Positions 24,849 to 57,466 of a stretch of 64,000 bases of DNA are shown here, one piece after another. The stretch comes from Tersicoccus solisilvae (GTDB taxonomy: Bacteria > Actinomycetota > Actinomycetes > Actinomycetales > Micrococcaceae): positions 1 to 64,000 of the forward strand of contig NZ_BMJI01000012.1 of the NCBI RefSeq assembly GCF_014643255.1. Direction: 5' to 3'. A model generated the notes under the pieces. That model was not told where the DNA came from, searched no databases, and saw only the letters and a list, made by a program, of their open reading frames with translations. The position numbers and the translations under genes were made by a program. Position 1 is the stretch's first letter. Each line of letters opens with the position of its first letter.

Positions 24849-24900
24849 GACACACGACGAGGGCCCGGGCGAGGAACCGCCCGGGCCTTCGTCGTGTGTC
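24849..24900. terminator. Bidirectional terminator after sdhCDAB
   Basis: A stem of about 22 bp (arms GACACACGACGA... at 24849-24871 and 24878-24900, one interior mismatch, 6-nt loop) lies between sdhB and the convergent RNA-ligase-like gene. It is 17 nt after the sdhB stop and can serve both. Confidence 0.85.
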
Positions 24901-25431: not shown

Positions 25432-27465
<2,034 letters not shown>

Positions 27466-27499: not shown

Positions 27500-27570
27500 G
27501 CCAGCTCGTCAATAGATGTTCGATCCGGCCCTTCGCAACCGCTTGCGTCGACATCTATTGACGAGCTGGC
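27500..27570. repeat. Dispersed inverted-repeat element, copy A
   Basis: Perfect 20-bp arms (GCCAGCTCGTCAATAGATGT at 27500-27519 and its complement at 27551-27570) enclose a 31-nt loop. The loop carries a second hairpin, CGCAA-CCGC-TTGCG, at 27534-27547. The same arms occur at 41263-41334 with an unrelated loop. This copy starts 18 nt past the stop of the minus-strand membrane gene and lies upstream of the xthA promoter. The arms are about 50% GC, much lower than the surroundings. Terminator, structured RNA or mobile miniature element are all possible. Confidence 0.9.
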
Positions 27571-27588: not shown

Positions 27589-28218
27589 TCAGTCGACGAC
27601 GGTGCCGCTGAGGGGACCGTCGTCGGTGCCGTCGCGGCGAGGACGGTCGTCGACACCGAGCATGCCGAGCGCGTTGTGGGCCGTGATCTGGATGGTCTCC
27701 AGCGCCCGCGCCACCTGGTCCGGGTCGGTGCCCAGATGCTGCTCGATCACCCGGCCCTGCACCGCCACGATCCGCAGGCTGTGCGCCAGCTTCTCGTCCC
27801 GGACGGGGTCGGCGGCCGCGGCGGAGACCACCCGCGTGCCGGCGGTGGCACCCGAGGGGGGCAGCCCGGCGGCGGAGCGCAGCGTGTCGTTGGCGCTGGC
27901 GAGCTGGGTGGCGCCGAAGCGGGCGGCGCGGCGCACGGCGAGGAAGACGACGAGGGCCAGCACCAGCCACCCCGCGGCGACGATCGCGACCAGCCAGCCG
28001 ACGACGTCGTTCTGATTGGCGGCGAACACGACGGCGACGAGGAACACCACCATGACGACGGCGAGCATCAGCCCGCCCCCTCCCAGCGGCGACCGGCGAG
28101 CGCCGGTGACGGCGCCGTCGTAGGCGCGGCCCGCGAACCCGGTGCCGGAGAGCAGGCCCCCGGCGGGCGCACCGGTGCGGGAGTCGGATCGGGGATCGGG
28201 ACGCGTCGAGCCAGCCAT
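27589..28218 (-). CDS. Membrane protein of unknown function
   Basis: Unrecognised 209-residue protein. A polar, Gly/Arg-rich N-terminus of about 45 residues is followed by two adjacent membrane spans (LMLAVVMVVFLVAVVFAA and WLVAIVAAGWLVLALVVFLAV). A soluble, partly helical C-terminal region contains RDEKLAHSLRIVAVQGRVIEQHLG. The ATG at 28218 has GGGAG upstream; a GAGAAT box 6 nt before it would also allow a leaderless start. The inverted repeat copy A lies 18 nt after the stop. Confidence 0.75.
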   Translation of the reverse strand: MAGSTRPDPRSDSRTGAPAGGLLSGTGFAGRAYDGAVTGARRSPLGGGGLMLAVVMVVFLVAVVFAANQNDVVGWLVAIVAAGWLVLALVVFLAVRRAARFGATQLASANDTLRSAAGLPPSGATAGTRVVSAAAADPVRDEKLAHSLRIVAVQGRVIEQHLGTDPDQVARALETIQITAHNALGMLGVDDRPRRDGTDDGPLSGTVVD

Positions 28219-32521: not shown

Positions 32522-33808
32522 TCACCACTCCTCGAGGCCCTCGTACAGCGGGAAGTCGCCGGCGAGCTTCTCCACGCGAACGCGCAGCGCGTCGATGTCG
32601 GCGCCGGGCTTGAGGGTCTCCGCGATGACGTCGGCCACCTCGGTGAACTCGGCGTCGCCGAAGCCGCGGGTGGCCAGGGCCGGGGTGCCGATCCGCAGGC
32701 CCGAGGTGACCATCGGCGGGCGCGGGTCGAACGGGATGGCGTTGCGGTTGACGGTGATGCCCGCGCGGTGCAGCAGGTCCTCGGCCTGCTTGCCGTCCAG
32801 CGCCGAGTCCTTCAGGGAGACGAGCACGAGGTGCACGTCGGTGCCGCCGGTCAGCACCGACACGCCGTGCTCGGTGACGTCGGCGGCGGAGAGCCGCTCG
32901 GCGAGGATCCGGGCACCGTCCAGGGTGCGGCGCTGCCGCTGCGCGAACTCCTCCCCCGCGGCGATCTTGAACGCGACGGCCTTGGCGGCGATGGCGTGCA
33001 TCAGTGGGCCGCCCTGCTGGCCGGGGAACACCGCCGAGTCGATCTTCTTCGCGTACTCGGCCTTGGAGAGCACGAGCCCGGAGCGGGGACCGCCGAGGGT
33101 CTTGTGCACGGTGGAGGTGACGACGTCGGAGTGCGGCACGGGGTTCGGGTGCAGGCCCGCGGCCACCAGGCCGGCGAAGTGCGCCATGTCCGTCCACAGC
33201 AGCGCGCCCACCTCGTCGGCGATCGACCGGAAGGCGGCGAAGTCGAGCTGCCGCGGGTAGGCGGACCAGCCGGCGATGATCACCTGCGGCCGCTCCGCGA
33301 GGGCCTGCTCCCGCACGTGGTCCATGTCGATGCGGTAGGTGTCCGGGTCCACGCCGTAGGCGGCGACCTCGTAGAGCTTGCCGGAGAAGTTCAGCTTCAT
33401 GCCGTGCGTCAGGTGCCCGCCGTGCGCGAGGGTGAGCCCGAGCAGCTTGTCGCCGGGCTGGATCATGGCGGCGAGCGCGGCCGCGTTGGCCTGGGCCCCG
33501 GCGTGGGGCTGCACGTTGGCGTGCTCGGCCCCGAACAGCGCCTTGACCCGGTCCCGCGCGAGGTTCTCGGCGACGTCGACGTACTCGCAGCCGCCGTAGT
33601 AGCGCCGCCCGGGGTAGCCCTCGGCGTACTTGTTGGTCAGCACGGAGCCCTGCGCCTGCAGCACGGCCCGTGGCACGAAGTTCTCGGAGGCGATCATCTC
33701 GAGGGTGCCCCGCTGGCGGCCGAGCTCGTCCGCGAGCACCGCGGCGATCTCGGGGTCGACCTCGGTCAGCGGCTGGGTGTTCAGGGCGGCGGTGGCGGAA
33801 TGGCTCAA
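32522..33808 (-). CDS. glyA: Serine hydroxymethyltransferase
   Basis: PLP enzyme interconverting serine and glycine while loading tetrahydrofolate with a one-carbon unit. The 428-residue protein shows [25 protein letters not shown], the conserved [11 protein letters not shown], and the PLP lysine in [14 protein letters not shown]. The start is a TTG at 33808 with AGGAG 8 nt upstream; no ATG or GTG gives a normal N-terminus. A ZTP riboswitch occupies the leader, so expression should rise when ZTP signals folate or one-carbon shortage. Confidence 0.97.
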
Positions 33809-33862
33809 CGTGATCTCTCCTGCGGGGGCGGTCGTGGCGGTCGGGCACGCGGTCGTCGTGGA

Positions 33863-33940
33863 CTCCACCCAGGCGTGCGGCCGGTCCCTCACCGGGCGCG
33901 CTCCCCGGTGGTCCTCCACCTCACGCCAGTCACGCGTCCC
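33863..33940 (-). ncRNA. ZTP riboswitch (pfl motif) upstream of glyA
   Basis: The minus-strand leader of glyA has every core element of the pfl motif. A 5' P1 strand GGGaCGCG (33940-33933) pairs with CGCGCCC (33900-33894). The conserved GTGACTGGCG follows (33933-33924). Next is a P2 hairpin GGTGG-AGGA-CCACC (33920-33907), then GGGGAGC (33906-33900). The 3' hairpin element has CGCCTGGGT (33875-33867). ZTP/ZMP riboswitches control one-carbon and purine genes, and glyA is a standard target. The regulated step (terminator or translation) is not obvious; about 50 nt separate the aptamer from the ribosome site. Confidence 0.88.
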
Positions 33941-33950
33941 GTCGTGGCTC

Positions 33951-40167: not shown

Positions 40168-41250
40168 ATGACCCGCCTCTTCCCCGCCCCGCCGTCGCTC
40201 GCCGCCGACGCCCCCGCTCCCCTGACGGCCACCGGCCGGCCACTGCGCTGGGGCATCGTCTCCACCGGATCCATCGCCGCGACCATGGCCGGCGAGCTCG
40301 CCCTCCTCGAGGACGCCGTCCTGCACGCCGTCGCGTCCCGGTCCCAGGACTCGGCGGACGCCTTCGCGTCCGAGCACGGGATCGCCCGCGCGTACGGCGG
40401 CGCCGACGACCTCACCGGGCTCGAGCGGATGGCGGCGGACCCCGACGTCGACGTCGCCTACATCGGCTCCCCGCACAGCGAGCACGCCGCCGACGCGGAG
40501 CTGCTGCTGCAGGCCGGCAAGCACGTGCTGTGCGAGAAGGCGTTCACGGTCACGGCCGCGCAGGCGCGTCGGCTGGCCGACGTCGCCCGCGCCAACGACC
40601 GGTTCCTGATGGAGGCGGTCTGGACCCGGTTCCAGCCCGGGCCGAACCGGCTGTGGGACCTGATCGCGGACGGCGCCGTCGGGCAGGTCCGCTGGCTCGC
40701 GGCCGACCTCGCGTTCGCCGCGGACCAGCCGCCGCAGCACCGTCTCTGGAACCGGGAGCTCGCCGGGGGCGCCCTGCTGGACCTGGGTCCCTACACGACG
40801 CTGTGGCCCCTGACCATCCTCGGCCGGCCGGTCTCCGTCACCGCGACCGGCACGCTCACCGAGGCCGGGGTGGACGCGCAGGAGGCGCTCACCCTGGTCT
40901 ACCCGGACGGGGTGCACGCCCAGCTGACGAACGCCCTGAACTCCTTCGGCCCGCGTCACCTGACCGTCGGGGGCACCGAGGGCTGGCTGCGCGCCGGTCC
41001 CTCCGTCACGCGCATCACGGAGCTCACGCTCCAGCGGGGCGCCGGCGAGCCGACCCACGAGCGGTTCGACCGGGACCCCGCCGGCAGCCGCGGCTACGTG
41101 TGGCAGCTGCGCGAGGTGACCCGCTGCATCCAGCAGGGCCTGGCCGAGTCCCCGACCATGCCGTTGGCCGACTCGGTTGCGAGCATGGAATTGTTCGACG
41201 CGGTGCGGGCCCAGCTCGGTGTCCGCTACCCCGCCGACGACGACGCCTGA
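40168..41250 (+). CDS. Gfo/Idh/MocA-family oxidoreductase
   Basis: NAD(P)-dependent sugar/diol dehydrogenase, 360 residues. An N-terminal Rossmann fold has GIVSTGSIAATMA near residues 30-42, YIGSPHSEHA, and the catalytic Lys in LCEKAFTV (EKA where most members have EKP). The C-terminal GFO_IDH_MocA domain includes MEAVWTRFQPG and GGALLDLGPYT. It resembles the dihydrodiol-dehydrogenase/glucose-fructose-oxidoreductase branch. It follows the sugar importer and may act on an imported sugar, but has its own promoter. Inverted repeat copy B begins 12 nt after the stop. Confidence 0.88.
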   Translation: MTRLFPAPPSLAADAPAPLTATGRPLRWGIVSTGSIAATMAGELALLEDAVLHAVASRSQDSADAFASEHGIARAYGGADDLTGLERMAADPDVDVAYIGSPHSEHAADAELLLQAGKHVLCEKAFTVTAAQARRLADVARANDRFLMEAVWTRFQPGPNRLWDLIADGAVGQVRWLAADLAFAADQPPQHRLWNRELAGGALLDLGPYTTLWPLTILGRPVSVTATGTLTEAGVDAQEALTLVYPDGVHAQLTNALNSFGPRHLTVGGTEGWLRAGPSVTRITELTLQRGAGEPTHERFDRDPAGSRGYVWQLREVTRCIQQGLAESPTMPLADSVASMELFDAVRAQLGVRYPADDDA

Positions 41251-41262
41251 GGCCGGAAACGA

Positions 41263-41334
41263 CGCCAGCTCGTCAATAGATGTTCACGAAGGCCCGGAAT
41301 CGGGCCCGATGGAGCATCTATTGACGAGCTGGCG
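41263..41334. repeat. Dispersed inverted-repeat element, copy B
   Basis: Arms CGCCAGCTCGTCAATAGATG (41263-41282) and its exact complement (41315-41334) match copy A at 27500-27570 over 19 nt. The 32-nt loop is unrelated in sequence but also holds a hairpin, GGCCCG-GAAT-CGGGCC (41291-41306). The element sits between the convergent ends of the oxidoreductase gene and livF, 12 nt and 23 nt from their stops. A bidirectional terminator role fits this location. Confidence 0.9.
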
Positions 41335-41357: not shown

Positions 41358-42071
41358 TCAGGCGCTGCCCAGGTACGCCTCCTTGATGGCGTCGTCGGCG
41401 AGCAGTTCCTTGCCGGTACCGGTGCGGGTGATCTCGCCCGTCTCGAGCACGTAGGCCCGGTGGGAGCGGGACAGGGCCTGGTTGGCGTTCTGCTCGACGA
41501 GCAGCACCGTGGTGCCCTGCTCGTTGATCTCCGTCACGATGCGGAAGATCTGCCGGATGAACTGCGGGGCGAGGCCCATGGACGGCTCGTCCAGCAGCAG
41601 CAGGCGCGGCCGGGACATCAGCGCGCGCCCGATCGCGAGCATCTGCTGCTCGCCACCGCTCATCGTGCCGCCGACCTGCTTGCGCCGCTCCTTCAGCCGC
41701 GGGAACAGGTCGAACACCCGCTCCAGCTCCGCGGCGATGCCGGACCGGTCCTTCCGCGCGTAGGCGCCCATCTCGAGATTCTCGATCACCGTCATGCCGG
41801 GGAACACGCCGCGGCCCTCGGGCGACTGGGAGATGCCCCGCACCACGCGCAGGTGCGCCCGGGTGTGGGTGATGTCGTCCCCGTCGAACGTGATGCTGCC
41901 CGCGGAGGGGTTGAGCAGACCGGAGATGGTCTTCATCGTGGTGGTCTTGCCGGCGCCGTTGGCCCCGATCAGGGACACCACCTCCCCCTCCTCCACGGTG
42001 AAGGAGAGGTCCCGGACCGCGCGGATCCGGCCGTACTGGACGCTGACGTCCTTCAACTCAAGCAACGTCAT
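41358..42071 (-). CDS. livF: Branched-chain amino acid ABC transporter ATPase LivF
   Basis: One of two cytoplasmic ATPases of the HAAT-class importer (237 residues). It has Walker A GANGAGKTTTMK, a Q-loop SQSPEGRGVFPGM, signature MSGGEQQMLAIGRAL and Walker B LLLLDEPSMGLAP. The start lies 14 bp inside the end of livG, so expression is coupled. It is the last gene of the operon. Confidence 0.95.
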   Translation of the reverse strand: MTLLELKDVSVQYGRIRAVRDLSFTVEEGEVVSLIGANGAGKTTTMKTISGLLNPSAGSITFDGDDITHTRAHLRVVRGISQSPEGRGVFPGMTVIENLEMGAYARKDRSGIAAELERVFDLFPRLKERRKQVGGTMSGGEQQMLAIGRALMSRPRLLLLDEPSMGLAPQFIRQIFRIVTEINEQGTTVLLVEQNANQALSRSHRAYVLETGEITRTGTGKELLADDAIKEAYLGSA

Positions 42072-57415: not shown

Positions 57416-57466
57416 GCACGACGGCGGCCCCGGGAATCGCGGAGATTCCCGGGGCCGCCGTCGTGC
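57416..57466. terminator. 23-bp perfect terminator stem
   Basis: Arms 57416-57438 and 57444-57466 are exactly complementary with a 5-nt loop, between the convergent MFS and gluconokinase genes. The left arm begins directly after the MFS stop codon. Confidence 0.88.

Follow-up and report, generated by a model that had tools for sequence, protein, structure and literature searches.

In Tersicoccus, a family of about 70 palindromes of near-constant length is located just 3′ of genes. An earlier note on the window, i.e., the complete stretch of 64,000 nucleotides from Tersicoccus solisilvae analyzed here, had described two copies (A and B) with identical arms. Both copies lie at the coordinates given there, their starts are 13.76 kb apart, and their 19-nt arms are identical, but the two-copy repeat had to be corrected to 67 places in the T. 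solisilvae genome, which were obtained in a search with a covariance model (R1) built from 32 elements. The exact arm occurs 31 + 32 times in this genome and was matched in none of 100 shuffles. Relaxed matching yielded 137 arms for the 67 pairs, and arms are essentially never single. Among the congeners, R1 recognized approximately 50 elements in Tersicoccus sp. Bi-70 and four in a third Tersicoccus species. When 84,980 species genomes were searched, with the records of T. solisilvae itself left out, the exact pair pattern was present in Bi-70 only.

The pair pattern had no match among viral contigs, and a viral origin was rejected. No Rfam family scored above its gathering threshold for the element, so that a known RNA family was rejected; relaxed Rfam scans returned mostly microRNA precursors, as expected for any long hairpin. 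The findings that, according to the earlier note, would have spoken against its view (two copies only, without inner pairing in relatives, or a match to an element already described) were not made, as there are many copies and no Rfam match at the gathering threshold. The searched literature contained no description of such elements in Micrococcaceae, which does not prove that none exists.

The two copies in the window

Copy A is a palindrome of 71 bp (27500..27570). Its left arm, GCCAGCTCGTCAATAGATG plus T, covers 27500..27519 on the plus strand, and the right arm (27551..27570, minus strand) is the reverse complement of the left one. Copy B (41263..41334) consists of a 70 bp palindrome and one additional outer C-G pair; its arms are located at 41264..41282 (plus strand) and 41315..41333 (minus strand). 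Ten of the 19 arm nucleotides are G or C. The inner pairings claimed in the earlier note are present, CGCAA/TTGCG at 27534-27538/27543-27547 in copy A and GGCCCG/CGGGCC at 41291-41296/41301-41306 in copy B. In copy A, the pairing is the own hairpin of an 18-nt half-module, TCGACGCAAGCGGTTGCG, on the minus strand (27534..27551), the last base of which overlaps the right arm. In copy B, it belongs to the central hairpin GGCCCG-GAAT-CGGGCC (41291..41306), the family core that covaries.

The closeness to gene stops was also confirmed. Copy A is separated by 18 nt from the stop of a minus-strand gene without a Pfam match (27589..28218); the next gene downstream (26538..27461, minus strand) encodes a protein of the endonuclease/exonuclease/phosphatase family (PF03372). 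Copy B lies between two convergent genes, 12 nt behind the end of a plus-strand gene for a GFO/IDH/MocA oxidoreductase (40168..41250) and 23 nt from the stop of a minus-strand gene for an ABC transporter ATPase (41358..42071). Ordinary long GC-rich inverted repeats with loops of 5–6 nt, found in the window at 24849-24900 and 57416-57466, probably represent the kind of terminator that is usual in this genome. The window also contains a ZMP/ZTP riboswitch (Rfam RF01750, 51.3 bits) at 33860-33943 on the minus strand, close to where the minus-strand gene 32522-33892 starts.

Length, covariation, and position at gene ends

Each element is composed of two arms of approximately 20 bp, a belt of approximately 10 nt on either side, and a small central hairpin. 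The length from arm to arm is 71 bp in 73 of the 112 intact Tersicoccus copies, 70 bp in 36, and 69 or 72 bp in the remaining three. Orthologous copies differ in length by 0 (17 cases) or 1 nt (8 cases), and the spacer between stop codon and element differs between orthologues by a median of 8.5 nt.

Covariation by position was assessed by permutation within genomes. It was detected in the arms at positions 3, 5, 6, 8, and 13 (z 3–8) and in the core at positions 30–35 (z up to 4). The belt (positions 20–29) showed no covariation, with negative values at positions 24 and 27. Pair-wise covariation was likewise absent from the flanks; for this reason, an extension of the stem into the flanks, which are C-rich on the left and G-rich on the right, was rejected. 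When 44 elements were combined in a mixed alignment, 91.9% of the arm cells were paired compared to 82.6% in shuffles, none of 500 shuffles being as high, and 16 of the 20 arm pairs had changes on both sides (3–8 in slid controls). The arm positions T7, G9, C11, and G19 never vary in the 112 elements while adjacent pairs do, indicating that the arm sequence is held as well as the pairing.

The earlier note had regarded the loops of the two copies as unrelated. The inner hairpin of copy A and the central hairpin of copy B are indeed not homologous, but loops throughout the family are drawn from a limited set of half-sequences. One of these, the 18-nt module (reverse strand) that forms the inner hairpin of copy A, is found unchanged in seven elements of three species, including copy A itself. 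The half-module with ACGCAAGCGGTTGCG, which is present at 27534-27551 and in about 10 other elements, presumably resembles an operator of the LacI family. The compensating inner stems that had been proposed apply, weakly, to the innermost pairs and not to the 10 nt beside each arm, where covariation is missing. The folding energy of the loop alone was barely better than that with swapped halves (z −2.1).

According to gene calls made with a simple codon-usage caller, 29 of the T. solisilvae copies lie between convergent, 27 between tandem, and two between divergent genes. The corresponding numbers for Bi-70 are 27, 20, and 0, and all four copies of the third species are tandem. Taken together, the three species have 56 convergent, 51 tandem, and two divergent copies, compared to 108 divergent ones among all 672 junctions of the stretches concerned. 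The distance between stop codon and element is mostly 8–40 nt with a mode of 12–24 nt. Sequences are C-rich after the stop codon and G-rich after the element.

The elements are usually the sole strong inverted repeat in their gaps. Another strong stem was found in 4% of the convergent gaps with an element and in 30% of those without, a difference that is partly due to the little room left, since an element leaves only about 37 nt of its gap free. A first comparison of hairpins, between genes with and without an element, was confounded by segment length, with random windows close to the control, and was superseded by that of the convergent gaps. As claimed in the earlier note, a U-tract is missing: at least five T within 8 nt were present on just one of 165 3′ sides. 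The arms of tandem copies contain as many G-U as A-C mismatches (20:20), so there is no sign of selection for pairing in the sense RNA.

Inheritance in place and arm dialects

Of 31 sites that could be compared between species, 25 are occupied in both, which indicates that the elements are inherited in place; the sample is, however, biased towards occupied sites because the fetched stretches had been picked around elements there. A site was taken as comparable when the sequences on both sides of it had a match in the fetched stretches, and nearly all comparisons were made with Bi-70 (one with the third species). The flanks of the shared sites are 83–93% identical. The site of copy B is occupied in both T. 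solisilvae and Bi-70.

Loops keep a locus-specific ancestry, and arms do not. The loop similarity is 10.5 for orthologues versus 4.9 for random cross-species pairs. In the arms, orthologues differ on average at 5.08 of 40 positions and random cross-species pairs at 5.33, and arms within the T. solisilvae genome are most alike (3.58). A loop inversion between species is not claimed, as just two of 25 inverted loops exceeded the 95th percentile of random pairs. At six of the 31 sites, R1 recognized no element in the second species, yet three of these retain remnants or another type of palindrome. An example of the latter is GCCAGCTCG-CGGACTT...AAGTCCG-CGAGCTGGC, which again has 71 bp and the same outer arms.

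Flush direct repeats and those offset by 1 nt, as expected from a target-site duplication, occurred at the level of shuffled sequences. A Y1 (PF01797)/RAYT transposase was found in none of the three Tersicoccus genomes, whereas the control was positive in five of 14 genomes. Of the two possibilities considered in the earlier note, a family of structured 3′ elements agrees with the genome-wide occurrence, the placement at 3′ ends, the covarying arms, and the occupation of the same sites in a second species. A miniature mobile element that is active today does not agree with the 25 of 31 shared sites, the absence of a target-site duplication, and the absence of a Y1/RAYT transposase, though an ancient spread of the element may still have taken place. 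A direct repeat of 12 bp, GGGGTACGTGCG, flanks one T. solisilvae copy (C3:193750) at a distance of a few nucleotides, and the corresponding site in Bi-70 lacks the element.

With R1 and a broader model (R2), the same architecture was found in further genera of the Micrococcaceae. The outer arms of these genera are different (AACTGGCCCG, CTGGCGGTC). Two genomes of one genus contain the pattern CTGGNGGTC...GACCNCCAG, with 11 and seven occurrences; two of the 11 look coding and deviate in length, and all remaining occurrences in both genomes have 66–67 bp. One orthologous site, located behind a gene that we take to be gatB, has flanks that are 84–92% identical over approximately 2 kb. The inner arm at this site is AATAGATGACC-like on both sides in two species and GAATCCGCCCC on both sides in a third, while the outer arm CTGGAGGTC is the same and the loop core is recognizably common across the exchanged inner arms. 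Searches of relatives for the outer arm alone gave only background outside Tersicoccus. Exact AATAGATG pairs were absent from 395 further genomes sampled from the order, and R2 returned a single unrelated long hairpin from 34 genomes that belong to other families in the order, a search in which low copy numbers could be missed. Tentatively, these palindromes might form a Micrococcaceae-wide class of fixed-length gene-end elements, in which an arm "dialect" co-evolves with a sequence-specific factor and can be rewritten on both sides while the outer arm, the loop, and the location of the element stay as they are.

Possible role and relation to known repeats

A function of the fixed-length palindromes as bidirectional hairpins at gene 3′ ends is suggested by their placement, their covarying stem, and the rarity of other hairpins in the same gaps; judging from sequence, we assign it about an even chance. 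As the element is a palindrome, RNA from either strand would fold alike, into a stem of about 20 bp, followed by an internal bubble and capped by a short hairpin. Such a hairpin might end or protect both transcripts of a convergent gene pair, either by termination without a U-tract or by blocking read-through and 3′-5′ exonucleases. A trans-acting factor with sequence specificity may read the arm, or correction may run from arm to arm and from copy to copy; the factor or the correction would keep the arms alike within a genome and give rise to the dialects, while the loops drift at each locus. The missing U-tract and the 20:20 ratio of G-U to A-C mismatches in tandem copies speak against a 3′-end hairpin. 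A plain terminator requires neither a conserved arm sequence nor a fixed length. That the DNA itself or an arm-reading factor matters too is suggested by the constant length, the arm positions that never vary, and the equality of G-U and A-C mismatches.

A role at the DNA level is a serious rival because there is neither a U-tract nor a bias of G-U over A-C. The element would then comprise two inverted protein-binding sites at gene 3′ ends with a fixed spacing of about five helical turns from center to center, and the palindrome would be the shape of the site and not of an RNA. The reader could be, for example, a nucleoid protein or a topoisomerase handling supercoils between convergent genes; BIMEs are involved in such handling of supercoils. 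The conservation of the arm beyond pairing (T7, G9, C11, and G19), a length of 70–71 bp that is held while the sequence between the arms drifts, the lack of a G-U over A-C bias in tandem copies, and arms that are uniform in each genome and unlike between genera are all consistent with paired binding sites. Nevertheless, no binding protein is known, the arms of other genera have little sequence in common, and the innermost hairpin, which a mere spacer would not need, also covaries (z 2–4). On balance, we consider this role possible but doubtful.

The same arms at dozens of unlinked sites, the half-modules common to several loci, the six of 31 sites that differ between species, and the insertion sequences that hit the arms as they do in REPs (PMC1525189) would suit a REP-like selfish or once-mobile palindrome that was spread by an unknown enzyme, is now mostly fixed, and is found at 3′ ends because insertions are tolerated there. 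Such an origin is nonetheless unlikely in view of the 25 sites common to both species with flanks of 83–93% identity, the missing target-site duplication, and the absence of Y1_Tnp/RAYT from three genomes with a positive control; moreover, a copied element would carry its loop along, but the loops differ. It is quite improbable that the elements have no selected function and are maintained by mutation only, template switching at quasi-palindromes and short ectopic conversions keeping the arms symmetric and alike. Arms without an orthologue signal (5.08 vs. 5.33 of 40) next to loops with one, and the inner arm exchanged on both sides between the kept outer arm and loop core behind the presumed gatB, fit such upkeep. 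However, it leaves the placement at 3′ ends, the near absence from divergent gaps, and the fixed length unexplained, and correction should extend into the belt, which does not covary.

Like REPs and BIMEs, the elements are short palindromes scattered over the genome at the 3′ ends of genes, many of them in convergent gaps, and form genome-specific families that are favored targets of insertion sequences (PMC1525189). In contrast to these, they have a total length of 70–71 bp with nearly perfect 20-bp arms and a variable center of 32–33 nt, are inherited in place, and occur in three genomes without a Y1 transposase, on which ground a RAYT-type REP was rejected. A unit of 70–71 bp without a GTAG foot also differs from the REP unit of 20–40 nt with a conserved foot such as GTAG. 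DNA uptake sequences (DUS/USS) are known to occur in lineage-specific "dialects," a trait that they have in common with the arms. In Neisseria and Pasteurellaceae, they are paired in terminators (PMC1852404), and a genome-wide conserved sequence that makes up the two arms of 3′-end hairpins is a feature shared with the Tersicoccus elements. The latter, though, number tens of copies and not 1000 or more, and have no U-tract; while uptake sequences are found hundreds to thousands of times, often singly, the arms occur essentially in pairs only. An uptake sequence was therefore rejected, since the arms do not occur singly.

Hairpin terminators without a U-tract have been proposed in actinobacteria. 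With intrinsic terminators, the elements share a stem-loop 12–24 nt after the stop codon that is usually the only strong hairpin and is bidirectional in convergent gaps, but they differ by the lack of a U-tract, the conserved arm sequence, the fixed length, and the internal bubble. They resemble MITEs and Correia elements in being dispersed and non-coding with terminal inverted repeats, but have no target-site duplication, a variable interior, and sites common to different species. Due to the failed RAYT test, the different length and stability, the arms that are never single, and the missing T-tail, we place them in neither the REP/BIME nor the DUS family, but regard them as a new variant among the palindromic repeats found at gene ends. 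The usual explanation of such repeats is either a mobile REP or a terminator whose stem sequence is arbitrary. The Tersicoccus elements, with stable sites, a fixed length, and arms that alone evolve in concert, are a clean system for studying what keeps non-mobile palindromes alike throughout a genome, and they raise the question of whether high-GC actinobacteria mark gene ends by a sequence-specific signal instead of a U-tract.

Several copies at contig ends of T. solisilvae (C3:226986, C5:84, C8:113015, C9:100155, C10:97, C10:95697, C23:48677, and C27:27440) are broken off within an arm, in most cases at CATCTATT, and continue into recurrent IS-like ends (TGTGRTGTCCAGGGACGTTGTCC, CAGTGAGGATGATGG, and one other). 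Two copies of Bi-70 (C14:306242 and C18:140546) are likewise broken inside an arm. REPs are targets of insertion sequences (PMC1525189), and the arm breaks, in which insertion sequences are recognized from the IS-like ends alone, resemble this targeting. One of the IS types appears to duplicate TCTATT/TCTATC.
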